In this document: positions 506-52,427 of the stretch, piece by piece
Layout: each line of letters begins with the position of its first letter
How positions within the stretch are numbered: position 1 is the first letter of the stretch
From: Elusimicrobiota bacterium
GTDB lineage: Bacteria > Elusimicrobiota > Elusimicrobia > Elusimicrobiales > UBA9959
Direction: 5' to 3'
Assembly (NCBI GenBank): GCA_026388155.1
Contig: JAPLKI010000002.1
Coordinates: 39,241 to 103,240 of the forward strand
Length of the DNA stretch: 64,000 bases
Made by a program: the position numbers and the translations under genes
The notes under the pieces: generated by a model
The model's database searches: none
What the model saw: the letters and a program-made list of their open reading frames with translations, nothing else
What the model was told of the DNA's origin: nothing

Positions 506-636
506 GTTAAACCATCGGCTTAACTATAGGTGTTTTTGATAAGCCGCCGCTCCTGGGTCAAATAACAACGCTGCTCTGGTTCTTCGGCCTCATGGAATTA
601 ACCGGCAAACGCGGTAAACTTATATCGTGAGGTTTT
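506..636 (+). promoter_or_regulatory. leader element copy 1 (short form)
   Basis: First of the repeated elements of about 130 bp. The palindrome arm TTAAACC is at 507-513 and GGCTTAA follows three bases later. The third arm TAAGCC is at 540-545, then come the conserved core CCGCTCCTGGGTCAAAT and TGGTTCTTCGGCCTCATG, and the 3' end GTAAACTTATATCGTGAGGTTTT. CCTCATG can pair with CGTGAGG, the G.U wobble replacing the A-U pair of other copies. The ribosome binding site AAGGAGG of the gene at 656 follows only 5 bases later. Whether this is an operator plus 5' UTR or a riboswitch-like RNA is inference. Confidence 0.85.
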
Positions 637-655
637 AGATAAGGAGGAAATATTA

Positions 656-1420
656 ATGAAAAAAATAATGACGATGGCTGTTATGTTGGGTTTGACCGGC
701 GGTGCGTATGCCGCTGAGATGTGCGCCGGGGCGCTAGTGTGTATACCGGGCCCGATGGGGCAAACGATGCCTTCCGGCAGCTACTCACCCGCGTTCGACG
801 ATCTGGCGGTAAACGCCTCCGCTTTGCAAACTCAGGCTGCGGCGCCGGAGGTGTCCCCGGCCGCCACTACTAGCAATATGGCGGCTGATCTGAGCCAGTT
901 GACCGTGGAAATTCTGCGCGATGAAGCCCTGGCCGACCCCGCAGCATTCATTGACGCGCATACCCCGGAAGAAGTGGATGCGGCTTTCGGTTTCCAGCGC
1001 GACCGTTACCAGATAACGGACCCGAACAGGATAAAGAACGCCATCGTCCGCATGACCGTGGACCTTACCCGCCAGCGCCTTGTGATACAGTCGCCTACCC
1101 TTAACACCGAATTCAAGATCTCTTCCGGCGTTCAGGGCCATCGCACCGCGGGCAGCGGCAAATGCTTCTCCCCCGACGTGCTGGAGGAAATGCACTACTC
1201 CAGCCTCTACAACAACGCGCCTATGCCCCACTCCGTATTTTTTAATGGGAACATAGCCGTGCACGCCACCAGCCCCGCCAATGAATTGCTGCTTGGCCAG
1301 GTAGCATCCCACGGCTGCGTGCGCCTGTCAAGAGTGAACGCCGCGACCGTCTTTGCCCTGGTACGCGCCAACGGGAAGGCAAATACCGCGATCTGCGTGC
1401 AAGGCGCCCCGCCCAAATAA
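656..1420 (+). CDS. exported L,D-transpeptidase-like (YkuD) protein
   Basis: Residues 1-20 form a signal peptide (MKKIMTMAVMLGLTGGAYAA) closely related to those of other genes in the island. A low-complexity linker follows, and a YkuD-type catalytic domain occupies roughly residues 130-245. The hallmark motif is visible as SHGCVRLS with the nucleophilic Cys near 221 and a His at 219, preceded by an HATS motif near 203. The family cross-links peptidoglycan stem peptides or attaches proteins to them in the periplasm. The start is fixed by AAGGAGG at 641-647. The linker segment DLAVNASALQTQ resembles that of the truncated gene at 28669. A deacetylase gene follows 44 bp downstream and is probably cotranscribed. 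Confidence 0.88.
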   Translation: MKKIMTMAVMLGLTGGAYAAEMCAGALVCIPGPMGQTMPSGSYSPAFDDLAVNASALQTQAAAPEVSPAATTSNMAADLSQLTVEILRDEALADPAAFIDAHTPEEVDAAFGFQRDRYQITDPNRIKNAIVRMTVDLTRQRLVIQSPTLNTEFKISSGVQGHRTAGSGKCFSPDVLEEMHYSSLYNNAPMPHSVFFNGNIAVHATSPANELLLGQVASHGCVRLSRVNAATVFALVRANGKANTAICVQGAPPK

Positions 1421-1464
1421 GTATTAGGGAAATTATTAAGTGTCACTATTAAGGAGATAACACA

Positions 1465-2571
1465 ATGAACGCAAAAACCTGTATCCTCGTTTCTGTTCTT
1501 TCGATAGTGCCTTTTATTTCAGTCTTTGCCCAGGAGCCGCAGCTGCCGCGGGCCCCCGCTTCCGTTGCGGTTCCGGCCGTGCCGCCGGTTTCCGCGGATA
1601 TAAATTTGCTGAAGGCGCAATACGATGAATATTACTCGGCCCTTCAGGTCTTTTCCGACAAGGCCTACGCGGCGCGGCAGGACAGCTCCGAATTCCTTGA
1701 GTACTCGGCCACGGGCAAGTACCTGCGCGCTATACTTGACAACCTTTCGGTCCGCATAAGCAGCGCAACCGGCGCCGTTTACCAGCCGGAACCTTCCAAA
1801 GAGGGCGGAAAAGTTTCTGCGAGAGTTACGGCGGAGGTGGAGAGTGTTTTTAATTTTTCCGGCATCCGCGAAGGAGAGACGCGCGGTGTGCCCATAAAGC
1901 CGGGCTACTGCCAGATAAACTACGTCAAAAACAACACGCCCTTTCTGGTGCAATTCGACGGTTTCCTTAATAAGGGTGAGGTTATATTGACCTTTGACGA
2001 CGGCCCGGGGCCGCTGACCGAGGAAGTTTCCACCTCCATGAAGGACGCCGGCGCGCAGGTTCTGTTCTTCGTGCTGGGGATCAACCTTGGAGACAACGGA
2101 AAAATCCGCATAAAGGCCGAAACGGCGGACGGGCATCTTGTCGGCGTACACGGTTACAACCACGCCACTCCATCCGGCAAACCCTTCACCGCGCTTTCCC
2201 TTGAGGAAACCCTCAGGCAGCTGGGCAATGTGAACTCCTCCATAGCCTCAGCTATCGGCAAGAAGTCCTCTTTCTTCAGGCCGCCCTACGGCGTCATTTC
2301 GCCCGAGGCGGTCAGGGCGATATATTCCGATATCGGACTGGTTCCGGTCGGCTGGACCATAGATACGCTCGACTGGTCCACGAAGGATCCCGAAACGCTT
2401 TACCAGAACACAATATCCATGATAGCGAAGCGCGGCAAGGGCATAGTACTGATGCACGACATACATCCGCAGAGCCGCACGGCCTCCAAGCGCCTGGTGA
2501 AATGGCTGGCCGAGAACGGCTACAAAGTGGTTTCACCCGAGAGGCTGGTGCAGGCTTATAAAGGGGAGTAA
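1465..2571 (+). CDS. exported polysaccharide deacetylase (NodB-like)
   Basis: The N-terminus MNAKTCILVSVLSIVPF..FAQ is a signal peptide, followed by a linker of about 140 residues and a NodB homology domain from about residue 170. All five family motifs are visible: TFDDGP at 176-181 (catalytic D178, metal D179), H229 and H233 in HGYNH, RPPYG at 272-276, the WTIDTLDW motif, and LMHD with H331. Family enzymes remove N-acetyl groups from chitin, peptidoglycan or other glycans using a divalent metal. An AAGGAG ribosome binding site lies 8 bp before the ATG. It sits behind the L,D-transpeptidase gene, suggesting a wall-modifying pair under leader copy 1. Confidence 0.9.
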   Translation: MNAKTCILVSVLSIVPFISVFAQEPQLPRAPASVAVPAVPPVSADINLLKAQYDEYYSALQVFSDKAYAARQDSSEFLEYSATGKYLRAILDNLSVRISSATGAVYQPEPSKEGGKVSARVTAEVESVFNFSGIREGETRGVPIKPGYCQINYVKNNTPFLVQFDGFLNKGEVILTFDDGPGPLTEEVSTSMKDAGAQVLFFVLGINLGDNGKIRIKAETADGHLVGVHGYNHATPSGKPFTALSLEETLRQLGNVNSSIASAIGKKSSFFRPPYGVISPEAVRAIYSDIGLVPVGWTIDTLDWSTKDPETLYQNTISMIAKRGKGIVLMHDIHPQSRTASKRLVKWLAENGYKVVSPERLVQAYKGE

Positions 2572-8514: not shown

Positions 8515-9375
8515 TCAGTCTTTGGGGAGAAACTGGTATATCCTGGCGTCAACAAAGTAGATGGCCGAATCTTCCCTGTTTTCCTCAGGATCGCCATGGA
8601 CGGCGGCCAGGTTTACCGCGTTTTCCAGGTGTTGGCGGTAAATATTAAGGTTGGACTTCGTCATACGGACGGTCAGCCTCTTCAAAGCGATAAGTTTGGA
8701 ACCCTCCAGCCACTTATTACAGTTGTCGCGCAGCGCTTTCCTTATCCCCGCCGTCGCCGGAGTCATGGGCAGCAACTGGATCGTTTTCCCCACGAACTTG
8801 CCTCGCACCTTGTCGCCGGAAAGATCGACCACGCCTCCGTCAGCCAGCGCTTTTAGCGCCTTCCTTACCACTGTAGGCTTAAACTTGGTCGCATCCGACA
8901 ATTCCCTGACCGTGACCCAGCCCGCGGTTTCGTTCAGAAAGGTCTGACAGATGTCGGTCTCCAGATCCCGGGTGCACAATTTCCATTGATCCAGCGTAAG
9001 ATGGACGCTGAGCTGCGCGAGCGCTCTATGGGTCGCCGCCTCGGCCAGCTCCCTGCTGGGGAGATCCACATTAGCGGAGGCCGGGGCTGACAGGCCATTA
9101 AGCAGTTCGTCGGAGCCTGAGAGCGCTATGAAATAGGCCCGTATCAGTTCCTGCGCCTTTGGGGAATACTGCGTAACGCCCAGGGCCGACATGATCGCCT
9201 TGAGGCGCCAGCTCTTGGGCAATTTCTTTCCGCGTTCCATATCCCAATAGCTCATGAACGCAAGCCCCAGGCTTTTGCTCCCGCCTATGTTCTTGAAAAA
9301 TTGGTGGGCGGTGGGGAAGCCCTGCTCTTTTCTGATCCTGGACAAAACTTTGCCGAATGCTTTGCCGTTAGTCAT
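8515..9375 (-). CDS. HTH regulator, TIGR02147-like (paralog 1)
   Basis: This 286-residue protein is translated from the ATG at 9375. The N-terminal 65 residues look like an XRE-type HTH (FGKVLSRIRKEQGF .. FMSYWDMERGKKLP). The middle carries a winged-helix-like stretch (GWVTVRELSDATKFKPTVVRKALKAL). The C-terminus (RMTKSNLNIYRQHLENAVNL .. VDARIYQFLPKD) matches the pattern of TIGR02147/DUF4423 regulators, in which an acidic helix precedes a final YQ(L)xxFPL-like strand. It has no signal peptide and is presumably a cytoplasmic DNA-binding protein. It is about 60 percent identical by eye to the gene ending at 47290. It is divergent from leader copy 2. A TATAAT on its strand (9382-9387) is only 6 bp from the ATG, so the mRNA should be leaderless. 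Confidence 0.8.
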   Translation of the reverse strand: MTNGKAFGKVLSRIRKEQGFPTAHQFFKNIGGSKSLGLAFMSYWDMERGKKLPKSWRLKAIMSALGVTQYSPKAQELIRAYFIALSGSDELLNGLSAPASANVDLPSRELAEAATHRALAQLSVHLTLDQWKLCTRDLETDICQTFLNETAGWVTVRELSDATKFKPTVVRKALKALADGGVVDLSGDKVRGKFVGKTIQLLPMTPATAGIRKALRDNCNKWLEGSKLIALKRLTVRMTKSNLNIYRQHLENAVNLAAVHGDPEENREDSAIYFVDARIYQFLPKD

Positions 9376-9381
9376 GCTCCA

Positions 9382-9387
9382 ATTATA
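9382..9387 (-). promoter_or_regulatory. -10 box of regulator paralog 1 (leaderless)
   Basis: On the minus strand this is a consensus TATAAT, six bases before the ATG at 9375, so transcription should start at or next to the start codon. No ribosome binding site is possible. The palindrome of leader copy 2 (9396-9414) covers the expected -35 position, pointing to autoregulation or activation through that site. Confidence 0.65.
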
Positions 9388-9395
9388 CCATATCA

Positions 9396-9550
9396 GTTCA
9401 GCCATAGGCTTAACTAACGGCATTTTTGATAAGCCGCCGCTCCTGGGTCAAATAACAAGGCCGCTCTGGTTCTTCGGCCTCAGGCAATTCATCGGCAAGC
9501 GGAGTAAACTTATATCGTGAGGTTTTGAGAGCTGCATGACAAGCCTCATT
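9396..9550 (+). promoter_or_regulatory. leader element copy 2 (long form), divergent with regulator 1
   Basis: The palindrome GTTCAGCC-ATA-GGCTTAAC is followed by the third arm TAAGCC, the CCGCTCCTGGGTCAAAT core, the GGCCG..CGGCC hairpin, CCTCA, and TATATCGTGAGGTTTT ending at 9526. The long form continues to AAGCCTCATT, where CCTCA could pair with the TGAGG of the 3' end. It lies 207 bp upstream-to-start between the regulator and the large exported protein at 9583. Confidence 0.85.
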
Positions 9551-9582
9551 AAAGAGGAAACAGATAAGAGGAGAGATCAAGT

Positions 9583-11871
9583 ATGAAAAACTCAGCACTC
9601 GTAAACATGAGGTTTGCAGGCAGCTCAAATCCAGCACCGAGAGGTATTAAATATATGAGAAAGACAACCATGTTACTTTGTTCCTTACTAATGGCCGCGC
9701 CCGGCTTTGCTTTTGCGGGGCAGACGGCTTTGGACGAGCTTAAAGCGATGGCGCAGACCGCGCCCGAAGCGGCGCCGGTCGAACCCGGCTCAGGACACTC
9801 CGGCCAGGTCGCCGCGGCCTCTCCCGCCTGGGCGAATGCGGAAGTGGAAGCAACGCCTCCGGCCGAACAGGGTTTTTGGGAATCATTTGAGGAGGGCGCC
9901 AACCTTCCCGATATGTGCCGGTTCGTTTCCCTTCCCGTCAGTTACGACTATGTCTCAACACTCGGAACTGTAGGCGGTTCGGCCAACAGAAGTTTTTCCA
10001 GCTATCCTAACGGCCAGCTGGCGCTGGTGGATCAGGTCGGCCTTTCCTTAGGTTATGAGCGCGAATCAGGCAAAGCCCTTTTTCAAGGCGGGGAAAAACT
10101 GCTTGCGCTTGCCTCCTCCGGGTTTTCAGTGGTCGGCGGAGTAAATCTTAAGGGTTCTTCAATGGTGGTCCGCCCCCTGGATGGAAAGAAATCCTGCGAC
10201 CAGTTGGAGAAGATAATAAACATTCCTCAATTCAAGACCGCGCTTCCGTTCAGGGCCAATCGCTTCGCGGCCATGCAGGTCGGCGAAGTATGGAAACTGC
10301 CTGTTTCCTTCTGGATGGGCCTTACTCCGACCATCAGCGGCGGATACGGCAATGTCAGCCTCGGGATCTCCCTCGGCGTGGAAAAAGAGGTCGACCACAG
10401 CGTTTCTATCTATCGCATGAACGAAAGCGAATTGCGCGTCCGTCTGCGGCTTGATCAGGCCAGGATCATAAGCTACGGCGCGGAAATAGAAGCCGTCGTC
10501 GTTCCGCTGGAAGACACTTTCATCACGGCGGGCGACGCGCTGATAAAGCTTATGGGGCCGACGGCGGGCCCGGCGGCTGTCAATATGCTGATGCCGTCGC
10601 TTGAAAATTACACCATCGCCAGCCTGGGTATTTCACAGGAACGCGTGAAGGGCAAGAAAGCGCTTCTGGAATTCATTCTTGATCCGAAAGATTCCGCACA
10701 GATGGAAAAACTTTCGGAGATGCTGAACCACGGACAGCTGGGCGCTATCGCGGAGCTGGCCAAAGTGGCCGTAAAACGGGCTTTCCTGCCGGAACATGAC
10801 GGTGAAACGTCCGAGGCGCTTCTTATGCAGGCGACCAACCGCTGGGAAGCCAGGCTCGGAGTGTCTTCTTCATATAACGGCGTGGACAGGACAAGGGAAG
10901 TAAACACGAACATACATATTCATGTGCCCATACTCGCGAACTACCAGCGCATTTACGGCACGACTTATCAGCATATACACACTCCCGGCTCGAACGAGAC
11001 ACTGCATGTTCACGAAAACACGCTGGAGCGCAGCGGCGGATACCTGGATGTCCCCTTTCAGGGCACGACCTTTAAGCATAACCGCGCCAGAGCGATCGCC
11101 GTGTTCAATAAAGAGGTATCCGGCAAGGTAAGCCAGCCGGTGCTGAAATATGAGCACTTCGAAGCCGAAATGAGGCATACCAAGGATGCGGCGCGCAGAA
11201 TGCTTGAAAACGCCAACGATGTAATGCGCTATGCCGGAGCAAAAGGCGGCGTATTGAACCCCGCGGCTGCCATACCGCTGAACGAACTGCAGAGAGACAC
11301 GCCCCAGCACGAGGGGCGCAGCAACAACTCGGCTTACATGACCTTCGCCATGGTAGTGAACGAAAAAGGCGTGCAGGATATAATTAACGCGGATGAAAGG
11401 TTGGTCGTAAAAGCCTACATCAACACCCTGAGCGCGGACGAAAAGATAATGATGCGGGACCAGATCAGGCCGGACGGCTCTATCAACTACACGCCGGTGG
11501 CCGGCAGTTCTGAGAGCACTGTAAAGCATCATCTCACTAAAGCCCTGAGGATACTGGGCGATATCCAGCAGGCGCGCATAGGGCCCGGCGGCTACTCCGC
11601 TAACTGGAAAGAGCAGTCCGAGAAGCTGTCCAAGATGATCAGCGGCGACAGCAAAAGCGACCTGAAATACGACGAGGTGCTTAAGGTTCTGGTGCAGCTG
11701 ACCGACCTTCAAAATGTGCAGGCCGAAATAGCGTATTACGAGCTGTCCGGCGGACATACGGATGTGGCGGCGGCCAAGGAATTCAACGGTGAAAACCCCG
11801 CCTTTCAAAGCGCCGGCGAGTATGATGCGACGGTTGAGCACTTTGATGACCCGGCCGTGAATACGGACTGA
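9583..11871 (+). CDS. large exported protein of unknown function
   Basis: This is a 762-residue protein that I do not recognise. The start at 9583 follows AGAGGAGAG. It gives an unusually long n-region of about 25 residues before the hydrophobic core (MRKTTMLLCSLLMAAPGFAFA). A second ATG at 9655 with GAGAGG upstream is a possible alternative. The mature protein begins GQTALDELKAMAQ, the island-typical amphipathic segment, then a Pro/Ala linker. Residues 105-300 are rich in Gly and alternating hydrophobics and look beta-sheet-like. A His-rich part around 440-490 (NIHIHVPI, YQHIHTPG, LHVHEN) could bind metal. The C-terminal 200 residues are helical. The gene at 22409 carries a truncated copy of its N-terminus. 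Confidence 0.75.
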   Translation: MKNSALVNMRFAGSSNPAPRGIKYMRKTTMLLCSLLMAAPGFAFAGQTALDELKAMAQTAPEAAPVEPGSGHSGQVAAASPAWANAEVEATPPAEQGFWESFEEGANLPDMCRFVSLPVSYDYVSTLGTVGGSANRSFSSYPNGQLALVDQVGLSLGYERESGKALFQGGEKLLALASSGFSVVGGVNLKGSSMVVRPLDGKKSCDQLEKIINIPQFKTALPFRANRFAAMQVGEVWKLPVSFWMGLTPTISGGYGNVSLGISLGVEKEVDHSVSIYRMNESELRVRLRLDQARIISYGAEIEAVVVPLEDTFITAGDALIKLMGPTAGPAAVNMLMPSLENYTIASLGISQERVKGKKALLEFILDPKDSAQMEKLSEMLNHGQLGAIAELAKVAVKRAFLPEHDGETSEALLMQATNRWEARLGVSSSYNGVDRTREVNTNIHIHVPILANYQRIYGTTYQHIHTPGSNETLHVHENTLERSGGYLDVPFQGTTFKHNRARAIAVFNKEVSGKVSQPVLKYEHFEAEMRHTKDAARRMLENANDVMRYAGAKGGVLNPAAAIPLNELQRDTPQHEGRSNNSAYMTFAMVVNEKGVQDIINADERLVVKAYINTLSADEKIMMRDQIRPDGSINYTPVAGSSESTVKHHLTKALRILGDIQQARIGPGGYSANWKEQSEKLSKMISGDSKSDLKYDEVLKVLVQLTDLQNVQAEIAYYELSGGHTDVAAAKEFNGENPAFQSAGEYDATVEHFDDPAVNTD

Positions 11872-17963: not shown

Positions 17964-18003
17964 ACACGGGCAGGACCGGCCCGTCCGGCGGGTAATGCCA
18001 GAA

Positions 18004-18035
18004 GCTTAGCCGAAGGCGTTTCTGATAAGCCGCCG
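18004..18035 (+). promoter_or_regulatory. decayed relic of the leader element
   Basis: GCTTAGCCGAAGGCGTTTC followed by TGATAAGCCGCCG matches the 5' third of the element (about 26 of 32 bases against copy 7). The core and 3' parts are unrecognisable. It lies 107 bp before the small exported protein at 18142. Confidence 0.55.
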
Positions 18036-18141
18036 CAGGCGCTCCGCTGTTCATTTTAGCGCGGTAGATGCCGGGCTCAGGGCCCGGGACTATTTTGGTT
18101 CAAAGACCAGAAAAAACATAAAAACAAGGAGACATAAAACA

Positions 18142-22208: not shown

Positions 22209-22222
22209 TCATATTTTTTCCG

Positions 22223-22354
22223 ATTAAACCGCCGGCTTAGTTAAGGGTGCTTTTGATAAGCCGCCGCTCCTGGGTCAAATTACAACGCCGCTCTGGTTCT
22301 TCGTCCTCAGGTAAGTCATCGGCCGGCGGGGTAACCTTATATCATGAGGTTTTT
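22223..22354 (+). promoter_or_regulatory. leader element copy 3 (long form)
   Basis: TTAAACC-GCC-GGCTTAG, then TAAGCC, CCGCTCCTGGGTCAAAT, TGGTTCTTCGTCCTCAGG and ATATCATGAGGTTTTT. CCTCA and TGAGG are retained. One base of the CGGCC arm is changed (CGTCC), weakening that hairpin. The copy drives a truncated gene (22409) followed by a protease. Confidence 0.83.
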
Positions 22355-22408: not shown

Positions 22409-22717
22409 ATGAAAAAACCGGCACTCTTAAAAATGAGTTTTGCAGATAGCGCGAATATAGCGCCGAGAGCCATGAAACATAGGCGGAAAACAACCATGCT
22501 TCTTTCTTCCTTGCTGATCACCGCACCCGGTTTTGCTTTTGCCGGACGAACGGCTTTAGAGAAGCTCAGGGGTATGGCGCAGACTGCGCCTGCTGTAGCT
22601 CCGGCCCTGGAGACTGCGGAAATGGAACTAACAGACGACGGCGAACAGGTTCTTTGGGGGTTATTCGAGGAAAGCGCCCCCGACCTGGGTGTTGGGACAT
22701 CCGCGCATTATTTATAG
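22409..22717 (+). pseudogene. truncated paralog of the large exported protein at 9583
   Basis: This is a 102-codon frame with a ribosome binding site (AAGGAGAG). The first 75 residues parallel the 9583 protein closely: the long n-region (MKKPALLKMSFADSANIAPR), the signal core TTMLLSSLLITAPGFAFAG, the TALEKLRGMAQTAP segment and EQVLWGLFEES. It then diverges and stops where the paralog continues for about 650 residues. It is read as the 5' remnant of a deleted gene, though a short exported peptide remains possible. The protease gene begins 24 bp after its stop, so the leader and stub now serve as the 5' region for another enzyme. Confidence 0.7.
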
Positions 22718-22741
22718 ATAGTGTTGTGGACCATAAAACTT

Positions 22742-23734: not shown

Positions 23735-23751
23735 TCCGTAGCGGCTGGTTT

Positions 23752-23793
23752 TTAGGACTTAGTAAATTCATCGGCAAAATCTGTAAACATTAA
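23752..23793 (+). promoter_or_regulatory. 3' relic of a leader element
   Basis: GACTTAGTAAATTCATCGGC followed by AAAATCTGTAAACAT resembles the variable arm and GTAAAC part of the element (13 identical bases AATTCATCGGCAA, then GTAAAC). No palindrome or core remains. It lies about 15 bp before the murein hydrolase start. Confidence 0.4.
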
Positions 23794-23805: not shown

Positions 23806-24627
23806 ATGAAACCCATACAACTGCGGCAGAAAACTTTATCCGCGCTCATAGTCCTGGTTTTCTCGCCGGTTGTCATGTTTGCCCGGACATTGCCGGCGCT
23901 GTCGGAGGAATTGCCTATAAACAGCCACGACATCATAAGGTTTCTGAATAATTCCAGTTCCCTGGCGTCTGTTCCTGCTCCAACGCCGGTTCCCGCAGCC
24001 GCCGGGGAACAGCCCTCTGATTATGATTTTGACGAAAACGGAGACGATCAGGATGATCCCTCAAATAAGCCTCCTGTCAGACTTGACGGCGACGGTCACT
24101 TAACCATTTTTAATAATAAAACCTCTGAAACTCTTTCGGTCCAATACCGGGACAGCGCCGGGAACTATATTCCGGAAGCGGCCGAACGCGTCAGGCATTT
24201 CTTCCGCTGCCGCCTTACGGAAGAGGAACACGATATTGCTCCGGGCCTGCTGGAAATCCTGGACTCCTTACAGCACAAATTCGGCAACAGAACTATCACG
24301 CTTCTTTCAGGCTACCGCAGTCCGGAACTGAACGCCGCGCTGAGCCGCAAAAATCCGGGCGTTTCAAAACACAGCTTACATATGTCAGGCATGGCCGCCG
24401 ACATTAATATCCAGGGAGTAAGGCTGACGGATTTAAGAGACGCCGCGCGCGCGCTTCAAGCCCGGAATACCGGAGGAGTCGGTTACTATCCCGGCAATGG
24501 GTTTGTGCATGTCGACACCGGAAGAGTGCGGAGCTGGACCGGCAAAGCCCGGGTCGTAAGTCATAAAAGGACAAAACATTTACACCGCCATTCAACAGCC
24601 GGCAGAAGGACCCGCCGCGCAAAATAA
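23806..24627 (+). CDS. YcbK/DUF882-type murein hydrolase (M15-like), copy 1
   Basis: This is a 273-residue exported protein with a signal peptide within residues 1-26 and an acidic linker (YDFDENGDDQDDPSN). The domain from residue 95 has the YcbK/DUF882 hallmarks: LTIFNNKTSETL, LLSGYRSPELNAAL, SKHSLHMSGMAADINI and GFVHVDTGRVRSW. His and Asp in these motifs are the expected zinc ligands. The family (MepK in Escherichia coli) cuts peptidoglycan cross-links. The protein is nearly identical to the gene at 49043, with the C-terminal 150 residues almost unchanged. It ends in a basic tail (GRRTRRAK). A third, decayed copy of that tail is at 45414-45482. Confidence 0.88.
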   Translation: MKPIQLRQKTLSALIVLVFSPVVMFARTLPALSEELPINSHDIIRFLNNSSSLASVPAPTPVPAAAGEQPSDYDFDENGDDQDDPSNKPPVRLDGDGHLTIFNNKTSETLSVQYRDSAGNYIPEAAERVRHFFRCRLTEEEHDIAPGLLEILDSLQHKFGNRTITLLSGYRSPELNAALSRKNPGVSKHSLHMSGMAADINIQGVRLTDLRDAARALQARNTGGVGYYPGNGFVHVDTGRVRSWTGKARVVSHKRTKHLHRHSTAGRRTRRAK

Positions 24628-25359: not shown

Positions 25360-25480
25360 GTTTAAACCATAGGTTTAAATTAAGGTGTTTTTGGTAAGCC
25401 GCCGCTCCTGGGTCAAATAACCGGGCCGCGCTGGTTCTTCGGCCTCAGGCAGTTCACCGGCAAACTAGGTAAACTTGGAT
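25360..25480 (+). promoter_or_regulatory. leader element copy 4 (3' end altered)
   Basis: GTTTAAACC-ATA-GGTTTAAA is a near-perfect palindrome. TAAGCC, CCGCTCCTGGGTCAAAT, GGGCCGC..CGGCC and CCTCAGG follow. After GTAAACTT the usual ATATCATGAGG is replaced by GGATATAGATGG, so the CCTCA/TGAGG helix is lost. The next gene starts 165 bp downstream, beyond a REP-like insertion that may have separated them. Confidence 0.8.
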
Positions 25481-25526
25481 ATAGATGGCTGTTCGTTTCA
25501 ATTCGAATGGAGGAGTAAATATCTGT

Positions 25527-27757: not shown

Positions 27758-27933
27758 AAACCCCGCTCCCCTTATCCCCCGCTCCCCCATTTAAGGGACC
27801 GGAAAATAAAGTTCATCCGCTCAAATAGTCTAGCAGAACTATTCCGGGTGTCAAGGGACCAAAGAACCAGGGGCGGAAGCTATGCTCATTAGACGGCTAA
27901 AACCGGATTTTTGAGCAATACGGCGGCATAATG

Positions 27934-28063
27934 GTTAAACCATGGGCTTAACTAAAGATATTTTTGATAAGCCGCCGCTCCTGGGTCAAATAACAAGGCC
28001 GCGCTGGTTCTTCGGCCTCATGGAATTAATCGGCAGGCGGGGTAAACTATATCATGAGGTTTT
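27934..28063 (+). promoter_or_regulatory. leader element copy 5 (short form, one base deleted)
   Basis: TTAAACC-ATG-GGCTTAAC, TAAGCC, the core, the GGCCG..CGGCC hairpin, then CCTCATG pairing perfectly with CATGAGG. GTAAACTATAT lacks one T found in other copies (GTAAACTTATAT). As a result a frame from the ATG at 27942 runs through the element into the gene at 28083. The ribosome binding site GGAGG follows 8 bases after the element. Confidence 0.85.
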
Positions 28064-28082
28064 AAGTCTGGAGGAAACACTA

Positions 28083-30240: not shown

Positions 30241-31194
30241 ATGAAAAGATTAATATACGCGGCGGCAGCGGCGTTATTCGGCGTTACGATTTCTTACGCC
30301 GGAGAAAGCGCTCTGGATTCATTAAGAGCCTCCGTTTCGCCTTCAGTTTTAGGCGGAATGGTTTTGCCGGATGTTTCCGGCGCTTTAAGCGGGCCAATAA
30401 AAGGCAACCCCGGTTTTAATGGACACGGTCAAAAACCGTATACCCAGGGCGCTAATATTCGCTGCGCGCAGGCCCGCACAATGGATTTTTTATCGCGGCT
30501 CGAAAACCCCGGCTCGGGAAATGAACCGGCAACGCTGGCGCGAGTGGTCTGCCGTTTCTCAAATGACCCAACGCAGACGGTCAAATATCCTGACGGGGCG
30601 ATAGCGTATGTGGGGCCGGAATACAGCGATAAGGGTTCATGGAAGTATCCGAACGGAACCTACGCGTTCGTGGGAGAGAGCTGGAGCGACAAAGGCTCAT
30701 GGAAATATCCAAGCGGGAGCTACGCGCTCGTGGGAGATGGCTGGAGCGACAAAGGCTCATGGAAATATCCAAGCGGGAAATACGCATTCGTCGGAGAAGG
30801 GTACAGCGACAAGGGCTCGTGGAAGTATCCGAACGGTAGCTACGCGCTTGTGGGAGAGGGCTGGAGCGATAAAGATTCCTGGAAATACCCTAGCGGAAAA
30901 TACGCGTTCGTTGGAGAAGGGTACAGCGACAAGGGCTCGTGGAAGTATCCTACCGGAAGATACGCGTTCGCTATCCAGGGCTCCGGGGACAGCGGGACCT
31001 GGTATTATCCTAATGGCAATCTTTTCGCGTCCGGAAACCAGGGGGAAGGCATCAGTGTTCTTACTCAATTGGTGGAGGACACATACAATATTGAGTTTCC
31101 GTACAACATCGACCTCTACAACTCTTTGGACGGCGTGAACACTATGTACAGGCTGCAATGGATAGAGCAGACAATGCCGACAAGTGCGGATTAG
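30241..31194 (+). CDS. exported MORN-like repeat protein
   Basis: AAGGAGAG precedes the ATG. The first 46 residues (MKRLIYAAAAALFGVTISYA.., ESALDSLRASVSPSVLGG) are almost the same as in the genes at 52484 and 20026, whose catalytic domains are unrelated. From residue 113 there are about eight tandem units of 20 residues with the pattern GSWKYPSGKYAFVGEGYSDK, which are MORN-like YPxGxYxxxG units. The central six are nearly identical at DNA level. MORN repeats bind lipid or proteins or act as scaffolds. A 45-residue non-repeat tail follows. The stop codon abuts a 5'-truncated leader element (31200). Confidence 0.8.
   Translation: MKRLIYAAAAALFGVTISYAGESALDSLRASVSPSVLGGMVLPDVSGALSGPIKGNPGFNGHGQKPYTQGANIRCAQARTMDFLSRLENPGSGNEPATLARVVCRFSNDPTQTVKYPDGAIAYVGPEYSDKGSWKYPNGTYAFVGESWSDKGSWKYPSGSYALVGDGWSDKGSWKYPSGKYAFVGEGYSDKGSWKYPNGSYALVGEGWSDKDSWKYPSGKYAFVGEGYSDKGSWKYPTGRYAFAIQGSGDSGTWYYPNGNLFASGNQGEGISVLTQLVEDTYNIEFPYNIDLYNSLDGVNTMYRLQWIEQTMPTSAD
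30577..31050 (+). repeat. tandem 60-bp repeats inside the MORN-like gene
   Basis: About eight in-frame 60-base units encode GSWKYPxGxYAxVGxxxSDK. Inner units differ mainly at codons after YP and around VG (alternating FVGEGYSDK and LVGEGWSDK), suggesting recent expansion by unequal exchange or slippage. Confidence 0.85.
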
Positions 31195-31199: not shown

Positions 31200-31290
31200 T
31201 TCTTCGGCCTCATCGGATTAATCGGCAAGCGAAGCAAACTTATGTCGGGAGGTTTTGGAGCCGCACGATAAGCCGCATCCGGGACAAAAG
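31200..31290 (+). promoter_or_regulatory. leader element copy 6 (5'-truncated)
   Basis: Begins abruptly at TTCTTCGGCCTCAT, six bases after the stop codon of the MORN gene, and continues through AAGCAAACTTATGTCGGGAGG TTTT to 31256 and the long-form tail GCCGCACGATAAGCCGCATC. Palindrome and core are missing, so a recombination junction at 31195-31200 is likely. A ribosome binding site and a 15-codon frame follow. Confidence 0.78.
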
Positions 31291-31382: not shown

Positions 31383-31793
31383 ATGAAAAAGATATTAGCT
31401 GCGGCGCTTCTGGTCGTGTCCGCGGGAATGGCAGTGATGGCGCAGGAGCCTGCGGGCAATATGAAAATAATGGCCCCGAATCTCCCGGCATACTTTGACG
31501 AGTCATTCAACGGCCAGGTCGTTGATGTGGCGGTTGACAGCATTGTTGAGATACGCCTGTCTGAAAATGCCAGCACCGGATACATGTGGGTCGCGGATAG
31601 GTTAGATACCCGGTCTTTCCAGCTCGTTTCCGAAGATTACGACCTGGAGAAAGGGGTCAGGATCATTAAAGTGAGATGTTTAAAGATGAAAACCGGAGAC
31701 TTGAAATTCAACTATGTCCGCCCCTGGGAAAACGGGAGCAATATAATCCCGGTCAAAACATTCCGTCTGAAGTTAAATGTGGTGCGGTTTTAA
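31383..31793 (+). CDS. exported chagasin-type cysteine peptidase inhibitor (I42)
   Basis: GGAGG precedes the ATG. A signal peptide (MKKILAAALLVVSAGMAVMA) is followed by a 116-residue domain of chagasin size. The diagnostic loops are visible: LSENASTGYMW, matching the NxTTGY-type first loop, and YVRPWE, matching the RPW motif. Chagasin-family proteins block papain-type cysteine peptidases by wedging these loops into the active site. The inhibitor may protect against host or prey peptidases, or against the island's own Cys enzymes (5897, 34003). It is an outlier in lacking the ALxxL segment after the signal. Confidence 0.85.
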   Translation: MKKILAAALLVVSAGMAVMAQEPAGNMKIMAPNLPAYFDESFNGQVVDVAVDSIVEIRLSENASTGYMWVADRLDTRSFQLVSEDYDLEKGVRIIKVRCLKMKTGDLKFNYVRPWENGSNIIPVKTFRLKLNVVRF

Positions 31794-31815
31794 GCGGACA
31801 ACAGCTTCCATAACG

Positions 31816-31946
31816 GTTCAATCACCGGCTTAACTAAAGGCGTTTGTGATAAGCCGCCGCTCCTGGGTCAAATAACAGGGCCGCTCTGGTTCTTCGGCCT
31901 CAAGTAATTAATCGGAGAACGGAGTAAACTTATATCATGAGGCTTT
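31816..31946 (+). promoter_or_regulatory. leader element copy 7 (short form)
   Basis: TTCAATC-ACC-GGCTTAAC, TAAGCC, CCGCTCCTGGGTCAAAT, GGGCCGC..CGGCC, CCTCAAG and TATATCATGAGG. The 5' palindrome is degraded but the GGCTTA/TAAGCC pairing is intact. The ribosome binding site TAGGAGGG lies 5 bases after the element, and the gene starts at 31966. Confidence 0.83.
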
Positions 31947-31965
31947 AAGTTAGGAGGGAACAATA

Positions 31966-44117: not shown

Positions 44118-44132
44118 GGGTACAACATAATT

Positions 44133-44262
44133 TTTAAACCATAGGTTTAAACAAAGGTTTTTTTGGTAAACCGCCGCTCCTGGGTCAAATAACCGGGCCG
44201 CTTTGGTTCTTCGGCCTCAGGCAATTCATCTGCAAGCGGAGTAAACTTATATCATGAGGTTC
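44133..44262 (+). promoter_or_regulatory. leader element copy 8 (long form)
   Basis: TTTAAACC-ATA-GGTTTAAA palindrome, third arm TAAACC (compensating the GGTTTA arm), CCGCTCCTGGGTCAAAT, GGGCCGC..CGGCC, CCTCAGG and ATATCATGAGGTTC. The tail GGATGATAAATCGCATCC follows. The gene starts at 44343. Confidence 0.85.
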
Positions 44263-44342
44263 TGGGCTGGATGATAAATCGCATCCAAGACGCAACAAAT
44301 TAACGGGAATCTCAAATAACTTAGAGAGGTGTAAAAAATAGT

Positions 44343-45044: not shown

Positions 45045-45482
45045 AGAACCCGTTCCGGCCGATGACTAACCTGACAAGTGGGCCTCGTTCTATCAGGGCC
45101 AGCAGGTGGCCTTCAACGTGAAGATGATGCGTCTGCCGACCAACGTGCAGAACCTGTCAGCGCAGGAACTGATGTGTAAAAAGGTTGCTGCCTTTTCCCC
45201 TCGCTCTCGCTACCAACAGCGTGCGCAGCGGAGACCAGCTACCAGTTTCATTTCGAGCTTGCATTTTCGGCAGATAAGTGGGAAGACCTCAAAAACACGA
45301 GCCAGGCAAGCCCCACCCTTTTGGCTCATAAACTATGGTCAATTGGCGGTAGCTTTCCAAGGGTAATTGCCACGAAGCCAAAGGAGCGGGGCAGACTGCC
45401 CAAGAGCTGGCTTTCTTTTTCCCGCCATTCAACATCCGGCAGAAGGACCCGTCACGCCAAATAAATTTTATTGCCGGGTAGG
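45045..45482 (+). pseudogene. decayed gene fragments ending in a murein-hydrolase tail
   Basis: At 45083-45190 a frame reads WASFYQGQQVAFNVKMMRLP.., a protein-like segment without start. From about 45229 another frame reads YQFHFELAFSADKWEDLKNT.. and runs into RHSTSGRRTRHAK and a stop at 45462. This last part matches the C-terminal tail of the YcbK-type genes (RHSTAGRRTRRAK at 23806). The identity with their 3' flank continues to ATTTTATTGCCGGGTA. I interpret this as one or two genes destroyed by deletion and frameshift, with a third murein-hydrolase copy surviving only as its 3' end. Confidence 0.65.
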
Positions 45483-45498
45483 TTTCCCGCTTACCTAT

Positions 45499-45628
45499 GG
45501 TTAAGCCATAGGCTTAACTAAAGGTGTTTTTGATAAACCGCCGTTCCTGGGTCATATAACAAGGCCGCTCTGGTTCTTTGGCCTCATGAAATCCGTCTAC
45601 GAACGGAGTAAACTTATATCATGAGGTC
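45499..45628 (+). promoter_or_regulatory. leader element copy 9 (long form)
   Basis: GGTTAAGCC-ATA-GGCTTAAC is a perfect palindrome. The third arm is TAAACC, so it pairs less well with GGCTTA. The core has one C-to-T change (CCGTTCCTGGGTC). GGCCG..TGGCC, CCTCATG and CATGAGG are intact. The tail GTAGCCGCACGATAAACCGC is identical to that of copy 11. The gene starts at 45684. Confidence 0.85.
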
Positions 45629-45683
45629 TAGTAGCCGCACGATAAACCGCATACAAGACTAAAATAAGGGGAATAATAAAAAA

Positions 45684-46426: not shown

Positions 46427-47290
46427 TTAGTTTTTGGGAAGGATCTGGAATATGCCGGCATCAACAAGATAGATGGCCGAGTCTTGTCTGTCCGCCTCGG
46501 CGCTTTCATAGGCGGCTACCAGGTTTACGGCTTTTTCAAGGTGCTGGCGGTACAGGTCCAAATTGGCCTTCGTCATACGGAAGGTCAGTCTTTTCAGAAC
46601 AACGCGTTTGGAATCAGCCAGCCAAGCATCCCAGTTGTCGCGCAGTGCGGCCTGTATCGCCGCCGTCGCCGGCGTTGTGGGCGGCGACTGGATCATTTTT
46701 GCCGTCAGCGGGCCGCGCGCTTTGTCGTTGGAAAAATCAATTAATCCTCCGGAAGCCAGCGCTTTAAGCGCTTTCCTTACCGCTTCCGGTTTAAACCTGG
46801 TCGCATCCGACAATTCCCGGACCGTGACCCAGCCCGCCGTGTTGGCCAGGAAGTTCTGACAGATGTGCGTCACCATATCCCCGGTGCGCAATTTCCATTG
46901 CTTCAGCGTCAGATTGACATTGCGCAGCGATATCGCCTTATGGGTCGCCGTTTCTTCCAGGTCGCGGCTGGAGAGAGCTGTGCCGGTGGAAGCCGGAACT
47001 GACAGGTTCTGGAGCAGTTCATCGAAGCCGGAGAGCGCGCTGAAATAGGCCCGGGTTAATTCCTGGGCCTTGGGGGAACGTTGTTCGATGCCCAGTGCGG
47101 CCATGATCATTTTGAGGTGGTAACTCTTAGGCAATTTCCTGCCATGTTCCGCGTTCCAATAGCTCATGAACGAAAGCCCCAGGCTTTTGCTCCCGCCGAC
47201 ACTCTTGAAGAATTGATGGGCGCTGGCAAAGCCCCGCTCTTTCCGTATATTGGACAGAATACCGCCGAATGCTTTGGTGTTGGTGGTCAT
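46427..47290 (-). CDS. HTH regulator, TIGR02147-like (paralog 2)
   Basis: This 287-residue protein is read from the ATG at 47290. An ATG at 47296 is also in frame, but the spacing to the -10 box in both paralogs favours 47290. The sequence matches the 8515-9375 regulator along its length: FGGILSNIRKERGFASAHQF, GGSKSLGLSFMSYWNAEHG, GWVTVRELSDATRFKPEAVR and the C-terminal VDAGIFQILPKN. Domains: N-terminal XRE-like HTH, central winged helix, C-terminal TIGR02147-like part. It is divergent from leader copy 10, whose palindrome covers its -35 region. It probably recognises the island's palindrome. Confidence 0.8.
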   Translation of the reverse strand: MTTNTKAFGGILSNIRKERGFASAHQFFKSVGGSKSLGLSFMSYWNAEHGRKLPKSYHLKMIMAALGIEQRSPKAQELTRAYFSALSGFDELLQNLSVPASTGTALSSRDLEETATHKAISLRNVNLTLKQWKLRTGDMVTHICQNFLANTAGWVTVRELSDATRFKPEAVRKALKALASGGLIDFSNDKARGPLTAKMIQSPPTTPATAAIQAALRDNWDAWLADSKRVVLKRLTFRMTKANLDLYRQHLEKAVNLVAAYESAEADRQDSAIYLVDAGIFQILPKN

Positions 47291-47302: not shown

Positions 47303-47311
47303 ACATAATCT

Positions 47312-47434
47312 GTTAAACCATAGGTTTAGACAAAAGTTTTTTCGGTAAACCGCCGCTCCTGGGTCAAATAACAGGGCCGCTGTGGTTCTTCGGCCTCAGG
47401 GAATTCATCGCTGGACGAAGTAAACTTTATCATC
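47312..47434 (+). promoter_or_regulatory. leader element copy 10, divergent with regulator 2 (3' end deleted)
   Basis: TTAAACC-ATA-GGTTTAG, TAAACC, CCGCTCCTGGGTCAAAT, GGGCCGC..CGGCC and CCTCAGG are present. After GTAAACTT the sequence jumps to TATCATCCGGGACAAA, as if about 40 bases between ATATCATGAGG and the long-form tail were deleted. The CCTCA/TGAGG pairing is therefore lost. The gene starts at 47485. Confidence 0.8.
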
Positions 47435-47484
47435 CGGGACAAATGGTTGACCGGAAAATTAAAAAACGAGTGAGGAAAAATAAA

Positions 47485-48024: not shown

Positions 48025-48031
48025 GTGAGTG

Positions 48032-49042: not shown

Positions 49043-49864
49043 ATGAAAACCATCGAACTGCGGCAAAAAACTTTGTCCGCGCTCATCGTCCTGATTTGCA
49101 CGCCGGCTATCATGTTCGGCCGGACTTTGCCGGCGCTGCCGGAGGAATTGGCTATAAACAGTCCCGACGCTATAGGGTTTATGAATAAGTCCGGTTTCCT
49201 GACGCCTATTCCTGATCCAAAACCGGTGCCTGCCGCCGCCGGGGAACAACCGACTGATTATGATTTCGACGAAAACGTAGACGATCAGGATGATCCCGCA
49301 AACAAACCTCCTGTCAGGCTTGACGGCGACGGTCACTTAACCCTTTTGAACAACAAAACTTCCGAAACTCTTTCTATCCAATACCGGGATAGCGCCGGAA
49401 ACTACATTCCGGAAGCGGCGGAACGCGTCAGGCATTTCTTCCGCTGCCGCCTTACGGGAGACGAACACGACATCGCTCCGGGCCTGCTGGAAATTCTGGA
49501 TTCCTTGCAGCACAAGTTCGGCAACAGAACTATCACGCTTCTTTCAGGCTACCGCAGCCCGGAACTGAACGCCGCGCTGAGCCGCAAAAATCCGGGCGTT
49601 TCAAAACACAGCTTGCATATGTCAGGCATGGCCGCCGACATTAATATTCCGGGGGTACGGCTGACGGATTTAAGAGACGCCGCGCGCGCGCTTCAGGCCC
49701 GCAATACCGGCGGAGTCGGTTACTACCCCGGCAATGGGTTTGTGCATGTCGACACCGGAAGAGTGCGGAGCTGGACCGGCAAAGCCCGAGTCGTAAGTCA
49801 TAAAAGAACAAAACACTCGCACGGTCATTCAACCTCCGGCAGACGGACCCGCCGCGCAAAATGA
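49043..49864 (+). CDS. YcbK/DUF882-type murein hydrolase (M15-like), copy 2
   Basis: GGAAGGAG precedes the ATG. The product is the same length (273 residues) as that at 23806, with differences mainly in the signal peptide and linker (residues 1-75). The zinc-site motifs SKHSLHMSGMAADINI and GFVHVDTGRVRSW are unchanged. Like copy 1 it is preceded by a trypsin-fold protease gene, so the protease plus murein hydrolase pair appears to be duplicated as a unit. DNA identity is high over the last 450 bases, which suggests recent duplication or gene conversion. Confidence 0.88.
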   Translation: MKTIELRQKTLSALIVLICTPAIMFGRTLPALPEELAINSPDAIGFMNKSGFLTPIPDPKPVPAAAGEQPTDYDFDENVDDQDDPANKPPVRLDGDGHLTLLNNKTSETLSIQYRDSAGNYIPEAAERVRHFFRCRLTGDEHDIAPGLLEILDSLQHKFGNRTITLLSGYRSPELNAALSRKNPGVSKHSLHMSGMAADINIPGVRLTDLRDAARALQARNTGGVGYYPGNGFVHVDTGRVRSWTGKARVVSHKRTKHSHGHSTSGRRTRRAK

Positions 49865-49922
49865 ATTTTATCGCCGGTTTCCGGATTCCGGAGGGCCTTG
49901 GCATTATAGTATTCCGCATTCC

Positions 49923-50051
49923 TTGAACTATAGGTTTAAATGAAGGTGTTTTTTGTAAACCGCCGCTCCTGGGTCAAATAACAGGGCCGTTCTGGTTCTT
50001 CGGCCTCATGGAACGACTCGGCAAACTGAGTAAACTTATATCATGAGGTTT
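49923..50051 (+). promoter_or_regulatory. leader element copy 11 (long form)
   Basis: TTGAACT-ATA-GGTTTAA, third arm TAAACC, CCGCTCCTGGGTCAAAT, GGGCCGT..CGGCC, CCTCATG and CATGAGGTTT. The tail AGTAGCCGCACGATAAACCG and the sequence up to the start codon are almost identical to copy 9, so copies 9 and 11 with their signal peptides are recent duplicates. Confidence 0.85.
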
Positions 50052-50105
50052 AGTAGCCGCACGATAAACCGCATACAAGACTAAAATAAGAGGAGTAATA
50101 AAACA

Positions 50106-50720: not shown

Positions 50721-50774
50721 CTCTGATCATCGCGCCGGTCTGGGGTTGCCCGGATCGGAAGAGGAGAGTGGTCT

Positions 50775-50807
50775 GACGAACCCGGTTGCCAAGCAACCGG
50801 GTTCGTC
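50775..50807. terminator. 15-bp perfect hairpin
   Basis: GACGAACCCGGTTGC pairs with GCAACCGGGTTCGTC around a CAA loop. There is no T run, so it may be a Rho-assisted or RNA-stabilising hairpin rather than a classic terminator. Confidence 0.6.
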
Positions 50808-50837
50808 GGATTATAAGGGAAAAGGCAGCTGTCTTGT

Positions 50838-51035
50838 CCTCCGAAAGCGAAAGTCGCGCTGAAAACCGCGCAGAGGGCCTGGCTTGATTTCCGTGACGCG
50901 GAAATAAAGGCGGACGATGTGAAATTAGAGTCGCTGGCTGAAGCTTATGGCGGGATGCACAAAATCAGCATGGCATATTCAAAGATGAATATTGTGCGCC
51001 AGCGGACGCTGATTCCGGTGAACCCGGAAGAATAA
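50838..51035 (+). pseudogene. C-terminal remnant of an LprI-like (DUF1311) protein
   Basis: A 65-codon open stretch without a start or ribosome binding site reads PPKAKVALKTAQRAWLDFRD, then AEIKADDVKLESLAEAYGGM and ends SKMNIVRQRTLIPVNPEE. LKxxQRAWxxFRDAE is the signature of the DUF1311/LprI domain, found in lysozyme-inhibitor lipoproteins. The conserved Cys after RDAE is absent. It ends just before a strong terminator, which would have been its own. The rest of the gene is gone. Confidence 0.65.
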
Positions 51036-51053
51036 GAAAAATTAAAGATACCA

Positions 51054-51095
51054 AAGCCTCCGCCGGGCAGTTCTGCCCGACGGAGGCTTCATTTT
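51054..51095 (+). terminator. intrinsic terminator
   Basis: AAGCCTCCG pairs with CGGAGGCTT, with an inner GGGCA/TGCCC stem, followed by CATTTT. It lies 18 bp after the LprI-like remnant's stop codon. Confidence 0.85.
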
Positions 51096-51114
51096 AATAG
51101 GGGGCGGCGACCTG

Positions 51115-51166
51115 GAAAAAGGTGTCAGGCTGATTTTTTAAATACAAAGCCGCCCGACACTTTTTT
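51115..51166 (+). terminator. terminator with an A/T-rich loop, family copy 2
   Basis: GTGTC-A-GGC pairs with GCC-C-GACAC around GATTTTTTAAATACAAA, flanked by AAAAA and TTTTTT. Same plan as 44066-44117 with compensatory stem changes. Leader copy 12 begins 12 bp later, as leader copy 8 begins 16 bp after the other. Confidence 0.8.
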
Positions 51167-51177
51167 CAACATAAGTT

Positions 51178-51308
51178 GTTAAACCATTGATTGAATTAAA
51201 GGCATTTTTGGTAAACCGCCGCTCCTGGGTCAAATAACAGGGCCGCTTTGGTTCTTAGGCCTCAGGCAGTTCAGCCACCGGCAGAGTAAACTTATGTCAT
51301 GAGGTTTT
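51178..51308 (+). promoter_or_regulatory. leader element copy 12 (long form)
   Basis: GTTAAACC-ATT-GATTGAAT has a decayed right arm. The third arm TAAACC could pair only poorly with it. The core CCGCTCCTGGGTCAAAT, TGGTTCTTAGGCCTCAGG and TTATGTCATGAGGTTTT are present. The tail GCTGCACGACAAACCTCATC contains CCTCA, complementary to TGAGG. The gene starts 112 bp downstream. Confidence 0.82.
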
Positions 51309-51419
51309 GGGGGCTGCACGACAAACCTCATCCAGGACGAAACAAACAGGGTGCGGCATATTATCTCCGGCGAAGCGGCGTAAACACACCGGAGCAAAAA
51401 AAACAAAAGGAGAGTTGTT

Positions 51420-52256
51420 ATGAATAGCAAAAAGTTGTTAGCGGTACTCGGTATAATTTGTTTTGCCGGGGTCTCCGCTTCTTTCGCGGAGCAGGCCCGG
51501 CCTCTGGAGGGGATCAGCGCCGGTATGATAAAAGCCGAAGAACAGGCCGATATCACGCCGGTCGCGCCGCCAAGCGCCGGTCTTTTCACCCTTCCCGCAA
51601 AGGTCACGCTTGTTACGGTTGGCGATGTGGCGGGGGGGATAATAGGCGCCGATGGCACGCAGCTCAACCTCAAGGACGAGAATAATATAAGCCTGGGCAA
51701 GATAAGCAGGGAGCTCGGCGGTTTCCGGCACCTGGTGACCAAGTTCTCGGATCGCCCGCGCATGTCGATATACTTAAGGGATCCGGACAATAATTCCGTG
51801 GCTTACGCTTATGTGAACCTGACAGCCTGGGCCAACCACGCTATCACTGTTGACGAGTCGGTCGCGCCTTTCAGTAAACGAATAGGCTCGTTCAACTCGG
51901 ATGTGATGCTGGACATCGCCAAATCCTTATCCATAAATCTTGAGGGGATGGATGCCTTTTTCTCCGTCTTCTCGATCTATGACTCCGAAGGCGATTATAT
52001 CGCGCGGTCCGTTAAAAGCGGCGATTCCACGGGCTTCGACTTCACGATACAGCGGCCCGGCCCGGAGAACGACAAAGGCAGGAAAACCTGGGTGGATGTG
52101 GCGCACCTCATCGTTAACCCGAACTGGCAGATAGAGATAGTCGACCCGGACTTCGTGGTTCCCGGCCAGCCCGGAAAACTGGATCCCAGGCTTCTGGTCA
52201 TGATCCCGGCGTTCAAGCACTTCGTCACCAATGAACTGATGGGCAACGCCAGGTAA
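51420..52256 (+). CDS. exported hypothetical protein, possibly LURP-one/tubby-like
   Basis: AAAGGAGAG precedes the ATG. The signal peptide is MNSKKLLAVLGIICFAGVSASFA. The 255-residue mature domain contains LNLKDENNISLGKISRELGG, then RPRMSIYLRDPDNNSVAYAY, a pattern of Gly-initiated strands that recalls LURP-one/tubby C-terminal-like barrels around a central helix. The resemblance is weak. No catalytic motif is seen, so the protein may be a binding or membrane-interacting factor. It is under leader copy 12. Confidence 0.6.
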   Translation: MNSKKLLAVLGIICFAGVSASFAEQARPLEGISAGMIKAEEQADITPVAPPSAGLFTLPAKVTLVTVGDVAGGIIGADGTQLNLKDENNISLGKISRELGGFRHLVTKFSDRPRMSIYLRDPDNNSVAYAYVNLTAWANHAITVDESVAPFSKRIGSFNSDVMLDIAKSLSINLEGMDAFFSVFSIYDSEGDYIARSVKSGDSTGFDFTIQRPGPENDKGRKTWVDVAHLIVNPNWQIEIVDPDFVVPGQPGKLDPRLLVMIPAFKHFVTNELMGNAR

Positions 52257-52295
52257 ACGGCTGCCGGGCAACATCGGTATTCAGCGTTCCACAGC

Positions 52296-52427
52296 GGTTA
52301 AGCCATAGGTTTAACTAAAGGCGGTTTTGGTAAACCGCCGCTCCTGGGTCAAATAACAAGGCTGCTCTGGTTCTTCGGCCTCAGGAAACTAATCGGCAAG
52401 CGGAGTAAACTTATAACATGAGGTTTT
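52296..52427 (+). promoter_or_regulatory. leader element copy 13 (long form)
   Basis: GGTTAAGCC-ATA-GGTTTAAC, third arm TAAACC pairing perfectly with GGTTTA, CCGCTCCTGGGTCAAAT, AGGCTGC..CGGCC, CCTCAGG and TAACATGAGGTTTT. The tail GTCCGCATGACAAGCCTCAT supplies a second CCTCA. The ribosome binding site AAGGAGAG and the gene at 52484 follow. Confidence 0.85.

Follow-up and report, generated by a model that had tools for sequence, protein, structure and literature searches.

A repeated element ahead of exported-protein genes in Elusimicrobiota, read as a probable promoter-operator of a PlcR-like regulon

What does a long, well-conserved repeat do when copy after copy stands ahead of genes for otherwise unrelated exported proteins? 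The question is raised by a stretch of 64,000 nucleotides (nt) from contig JAPLKI010000002.1 of an Elusimicrobiota bacterium, hereafter the window, in which an element of roughly 130 bases occurs in 12 full and three partial copies. A preliminary description of this DNA took the repeat for a leader element and envisaged a structured RNA. Judged from sequence comparison, the repeat is probably a DNA promoter-operator with three half-sites for a helix-turn-helix (HTH) regulator encoded divergently beside some copies, in which the hexamer TAAACT would serve as −10, and not an RNA leader. The genes behind it would then form a PlcR-like regulon, with one protein governing a whole set of surface and secreted proteins.

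Copies of the element and the genes behind them

The 13 copies listed in the preliminary description are real: the 12 full ones start within 1–2 bases of profile matches, and the one at 31200 is a 3′ half. Two partial copies lie beyond that list, a 5′ half at 17991–18036 and a 3′ half at 23745–23788. At up to three mismatches, core string 1 matches the window 12 times (0.25 expected) and core string 2 matches it 13 times (0.58 expected); all these matches are on the plus strand, as had been claimed. In the source genome (G000; 3.36 Mb in 25 contigs), a pattern search with at most two mismatches found 16 copies, all on one strand of contig 2 and spanning about 71 kb, while a profile search at an expectation value (E) of at most 0.01 found 20 matches, 18 of them on the same contig. 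Relatives were searched with a covariance model (R1) built from 20 copies on an RNAalifold structure; R1 served solely as a search profile, and its matches carry no weight for RNA structure. The profile matched in 17 of 59 family genomes, with up to 41 matches in one genome. After removal of two overlaps from 134 matches, 132 distinct matches were examined; this set does not include two others, one from a contig of G076 and one from a contig of G078. Two of the 132 are without upstream sequence, which leaves 130 aligned rows, and the corresponding numbers are 128 for the TAAACT count in the promoter test and 127 for the signal-peptide count. The hits in G022 (26 bits) and G064 (25 bits) look doubtful, and L009 (G056) resembles a chance coding match. 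Assembly contigs end in element copies at L057, L089 and L091 (G078) and at L063 (G076), so that true copy numbers are probably higher. Viral spread was also considered: viral contigs gave 50 pattern matches, but the profile found a single weak match in them (16 bits, E 0.041), and this was taken as chance.

Among the 127 copies for which at least 500 bases of downstream sequence are available, 120 have an open frame of 90 codons or more behind them, at most 250 nt away. The downstream frame has a signal-peptide-like start behind 109 of the 127 copies, compared with 188 of 2000 random places and 207 of 519 frames not behind a copy. Signal peptides were called by a simple rule of our own, and several of the 18 misses resemble signal peptides by eye. 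Copies in the window and in relatives bear out the earlier claim that the element stands, in gene orientation, ahead of exported-protein genes of unrelated function, and the further copies before signal-peptide genes that it had named as support were found. Its statement that full copies end just before the ribosome binding site does not hold throughout, as the signal-peptide-like gene starts 0 to 202 nt behind the element (median 52; 109 copies). The Pfam scan, at the thresholds used, found no match for 13 of 27 downstream products; the others carry L,D-transpeptidase, trypsin-like, DUF2252, FGE-sulfatase, Peptidase_M15_2, clostripain, ADP-ribosyltransferase, phosphatase and Lnb_N domains.

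Half-sites, the 3′ hexamer and the RNA-leader reading

The predicted half-sites are TTAAGCC (alignment positions 1–7), the inverted GGCTTAA (11–17) and a second direct TTAAGCC (33–39). The strongest joint variation in the 130-copy alignment falls on positions 3, 15 and 35, where A,T,A alternates with T,A,T, and position 14 also varies with 36. One letter is common to all three half-sites in 97 of 123 gap-free copies, and observed pairing exceeds expectation both for sites 1 and 2 (0.87 against 0.77) and for sites 2 and 3 (0.91 against 0.78). Because the half-sites change together as operator sites would, they are better read as an operator than as RNA. A palindromic operator whose half-sites are common to so many exported-protein genes is what characterises a PlcR-like regulon. 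The letter at positions 3/15/35 defines A-type and T-type operators. A third type, TGTATAA, is present in 11 copies in G076 and resembles the sequence upstream of a regulator with a differing helix. In T-type copies CCTGGG shifts towards CCTGAR, and in copies of the third type towards CATAGG. All copies also carry CTCCTGGGTC and TGGTTCTTCGGCCTCAGG (alignment positions 43–61 and 72–88), a highly conserved, imperfect inverted repeat. Distant regulators in other families (L129, L132, L134) adjoin a different, TGTCGTGGCACAACA-like palindrome, possibly a further operator type.

The conserved 3′ hexamer reads TAAACT in 101 of 130 rows when taken ungapped, and the remainder include TAGACT (6), TAAAAT (5), TATACT (3) and TATAAT (1). 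Eight of 21 one-step variants match TATAAT at five or more positions, where even substitution predicts 2 of 18 (p 0.001); after 12 weak hits are dropped, the figure is 6 of 16 (p 0.006). A weakly matched element (12 bits) adjoining a distant regulator from another family has TACAAT at the same spacing from GGCCTCAGG. The variants of TAAACT lean towards TATAAT, as expected for a −10, and this is the role predicted for the hexamer in the promoter of the exported gene. No −35 consensus was seen by eye 17 bases upstream of TAAACT, where a conserved CTCAGG block is found.

The repeat could instead be a structured RNA leader, that is, a 5′ untranslated element with a promoter just upstream, acting on translation or attenuation and using the half-sites as alternative pairing partners. 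Its position upstream of genes in sense orientation agrees with this, as do the compensated changes in a first hairpin (GGTTAAGCC/GGCTTAACT), the pairing of sites 2 and 3 in 98% of rows at one position, and two of six single copies that fold better than their shuffles (z −1.92 and −3.16). In that hairpin, however, a third segment varies along with both arms, and the four other candidate stems show no covariation (mean paired against independence 0.68/0.67, 0.70/0.67, 0.68/0.66 and 0.77/0.77; for the stem CCTCA/TGAGG, 0.68 against 0.67 expected). The other four single copies show no such advantage over their shuffles (z 0.10, 0.06, −0.78 and −0.35). A plus-strand −10 hexamer (at least five of six matches) is not enriched from −18 to −3, where it occurs in 10 of the 103 copies that have no divergent regulator paired with them, compared with 7, 4 and 5 in control windows further up. 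At L096, two copies are arranged back to back with 18 GC-rich bases between their 5′ ends, scarcely enough for a promoter upstream of each. In one of the two, the start codon of a signal-peptide gene comes 11 nt after TAAAAT, and no ribosome binding site is visible in that interval. Neither this layout nor the upstream −10 counts agree with transcription that begins at the 5′ end of the element itself, and the half-site type tracks a protein residue (see below). As the preliminary description had supposed, the element matched no known Rfam class: no family reached its gathering score in the window, and a relaxed E-value search of 9300–9600 returned a single HOTAIR_2 hit outside the element (15.5 bits; gathering score 60). 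The leader it proposed gained no support from single-copy folds, consensus fold, covariation or the upstream promoter test, and is very improbable.

A remnant of coding sequence was likewise rejected. Several copies share a long open frame (KPPLLGQIT..WFFGL), and third positions in the core are slightly more variable (0.24 against 0.10 and 0.20 bits), but this trend reverses in the 3′ part. The first codon of the common frame is ATG in only one of 12 window copies, and stops break others. With the frame interrupted and mostly without a start, such an origin has next to no probability.

The divergent regulator and residue 42

An HTH regulator gene on the opposite strand starts near 27 copies, at a distance of 21–40 nt in 26 of them and 127 nt in L109. 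These pairs were hand-picked from 38 tblastn rows, leaving out L106 (25% identity, 67 nt) and a fragment at L068 (21 nt); the regulators L137 and L138 lie outside this set. A minus-strand −10 precedes the regulator in 25 of 27 cases, six bases before the ATG in the rows where that ATG is taken, so a leaderless regulator message is predicted. Close homologues (at least 200 bits) occur in 15 of the 59 family genomes, and all 15 carry the element; the two family genomes with the element but without a close regulator have weak element scores. At E ≤ 1e-25, a homologue is present in 23 of 340 phylum genomes. A regulator scan of named genomes gave one locus, in an uncultured Elusimicrobia bacterium, and the homologues with an organism in their name all belong to the Elusimicrobia group.

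The AlphaFold2 model of regulator 46427–47290 has a predicted local distance difference test score (pLDDT) of 84 and a predicted template modelling score (pTM) of 0.59. Its residues 1–93 match the XRE domains of ComR, BldD, C.AhdI and DNA-bound PlcR with moderate scores, and an XRE-type fold is predicted for the DNA-binding domain. The second half is modelled as helices with a beta wing at about 127–194 (pLDDT 81–96), which is matched by winged-helix proteins, and the weak Pfam hits in this half are to winged-helix families. Members of the PlcR/RRNPP family have a C-terminal tetratricopeptide repeat (TPR) peptide-binding domain. In the present regulator the prediction for the second half is a winged helix and not such a domain, so as far as tested it does not appear to be a member of that family. 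Its sequence profile found nothing convincing among solved structures (best E 0.23). The label TIGR02147 received no support from NCBIfam and is not used.

Residue 42 lies in the predicted recognition helix, at a position that we take to align with a base-contacting residue of the 434 repressor helix. In 105 homologues it is Val in 50, Met in 47 and another residue in 8; its neighbours are near-invariant, and residue 47 varies too. Excluding two pairs without a clear operator letter leaves 25 scored pairs: Met with an A-type operator in 11, Val with a T-type in 13 and Val with an A-type in one, giving agreement in 24 of 25. Two further regulators, with Ser and Gly at residue 42, stand beside odd operators. 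This agreement, and the presence of the element in every one of the 15 family genomes where a close regulator occurs, argue against a variant in which the promoter-operator is bound by another protein and the divergent gene is a passenger or mere target. That variant draws on the 103 of 130 copies without a paired neighbouring regulator and on the A-type copies of G079, which has no Met-type close regulator; it is nevertheless very unlikely.

On the promoter-operator reading with this regulator, the N-terminal XRE-like domain of the protein would contact the half-sites. The −10 predicted for the regulator gene itself is a few bases away from sites 1 and 2, and binding there would bring about autoregulation; the exported gene would be acted on from about 85–112 bases upstream of its predicted start. 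Because no −35 consensus was seen, the regulator would more likely be an activator of that gene. Paralogous regulators with different residues may read separate sub-regulons. More tentatively, and with the odds somewhat against it, the exported proteins of Elusimicrobiota might be under parallel, insulated control channels, with one recognition-helix residue (Met/Val 42) setting the channel read. On this view, one genome combines paralogous XRE regulators with three or more operator types (TTAAGCC, TTTAGCC/TTTAACC and TGTATAA), and a single exchange at that residue would place dozens of surface genes under different control.

Several observations weigh against the proposed operator and its code. 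The exception at L062, a Val-type regulator beside an A-type operator, heads a run of three of which the other two are Met, and in G079 all three close regulators are Val-type although seven copies there are A-type. Residue and operator labels cluster by ancestry, and shared ancestry explains part of their agreement; the regulator tree supports only four independent residue switches, which the operator follows in three and not in one (sign test p 0.25). Column 142, outside the helix, has raw mutual information of 0.81 against 0.79 for residue 42, although normalisation changes this to 0.35 against 0.80. Foldseek with the regulator model returned no match at E ≤ 0.001, the structural matches being moderate, and G177, outside the family, has a regulator (234 bits) with no element match in the 4.9 kb examined. 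The promoter-operator reading offers no explanation for the conserved blocks CTCCTGGGTC and TGGTTCTTCGGCCTCAGG. Two points would favour an RNA leader: the triple covariation could arise from alternative RNA pairing, and of the 27 copies that adjoin a regulator, 10 have a plus-strand −10-like hexamer just upstream, where transcription may start. These ten hexamers can be attributed to the nearly palindromic nature of that stretch.

Local clusters and comparison with known systems

The features of the window are collected in Table 1.

Table 1. Element copies, regulators and predicted signals in the window.
Feature	Positions	Strand	Remarks
Full copy	505..637	+	Ahead of 656–1420 (exported L,D-transpeptidase-like)
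Divergent regulator	8515..9375	−	Predicted XRE-type HTH; Met at specificity position
TATAAT	9382..9387	−	Predicted −10 of regulator 8515–9375, 6 nt before ATG
Full copy	9395..9527	+	Between divergent regulator 8515–9375 and gene 9583–11871
Half-site 1 (TTCAGCC)	9397..9403	+	Copy 9395
Half-site 2, inverted (GGCTTAA on +)	9407..9413	−	Copy 9395
Half-site 3, direct (ATAAGCC)	9429..9435	+	Copy 9395
TAAACT	9505..9510	+	Predicted −10 of exported gene's promoter, copy 9395
5′ half copy	17991..18036	+	Diverged
Full copy	22222..22354	+	Profile match
3′ half copy	23745..23788	+	Diverged; ahead of 23806–24627 (Peptidase_M15_2)
Full copy	25360..25492	+	Ahead of DUF2252 protein gene
Full copy	27933..28064	+	Profile match
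3′ half copy	31200..31257	+	CAAACT at −10 position; ahead of 31383–31793
Full copy	31815..31947	+	Profile match
Full copy	44132..44264	+	Profile match
Full copy	45499..45631	+	Profile match
Divergent regulator	46427..47290	−	Predicted XRE-type HTH (Met42); modelled by AlphaFold2
Full copy	47311..47442	+	Adjoins divergent regulator 46427–47290
Full copy	49921..50053	+	Profile match
Full copy	51177..51309	+	Profile match
Full copy	52296..52428	+	Ahead of exported FGE-sulfatase-domain protein gene
TAAACT	52406..52411	+	Predicted −10, copy 52296

The exported proteins are very alike in their signal peptides (MKK..GLTGGAYA) and similar over the beginning of the mature protein, and differ in their later domains; such signal peptides are found at many loci, for example at 656, 31966, 45684 and 50106 in the window and at L097 and L069. 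The similar genes 23806–24627 and 49043–49864, and a 3′-end remnant at 45422–45492, each lie upstream of an element copy, and the window cluster therefore seems to have grown by local duplication. Behind the copy at 22222, a 102-codon frame (22409–22717) begins like 9583–11871 and then stops, with a trypsin-like exported gene following at 22721, which suggests a truncated gene. The tandem 60-base repeats at 30562–31041 lie inside the open frame 30241–31194 and correspond to 20-residue protein repeats; six overlapping 180-base register positions are 65–81% alike.

Likeness of signal peptides and first mature residues across genes of different families, local clusters, paralogous blocks and contigs that end in copies would all agree with a mobile or recombination cassette that spreads a promoter and signal-peptide start onto unrelated genes, with regulation secondary. 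The copies nevertheless retain gene orientation and operator identity, and as the explanation of the repeat a cassette is improbable, though it can be compatible with a promoter-operator.

If the promoter-operator reading is true, a regulon of exported proteins with a readable protein–DNA code would have been recovered from sequence alone in a phylum that is largely uncultured. It would unite dozens of uncharacterised exported proteins in one co-controlled set, with regulators, operators, promoters and targets named. The case also illustrates how a combined operator and promoter may pass for an RNA leader. No description of the element or regulon was found in the open-access literature, judged partly by titles.

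Rfam leader RNAs and riboswitches resemble the element in standing ahead of a gene, but the window search at gathering score gave none of their families, and the element has no covarying structure beyond the half-sites. Among protein families, DUF4423 (Pfam PF14394) weakly matches the C-terminal half of regulator 46427–47290 (E 0.0033), at 17.7 bits, below the cut-off of 30, and is not listed for regulator 8515–9375. Controller proteins of restriction-modification systems bind near their own promoter and regulate themselves; C.AhdI and C.Esp1396I share the XRE fold match, whereas the regulator described here is several times longer and would have many distant targets. The DNA-binding domain of PlcR also matches the regulator model, but PlcR has a TPR peptide sensor where a winged helix is predicted here. 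The PlcR regulon of Bacillus cereus is reported to comprise 45 genes and 28 boxes, with 40 of the proteins exported (PMC2464732), a likeness in that a single regulator and a common box serve mostly exported proteins. The present element differs in its three half-sites, its paralogous regulators with different operators and its long conserved promoter. What novelty it has comes from its triple half-sites, from the coexistence of several operator types and from the phylum.

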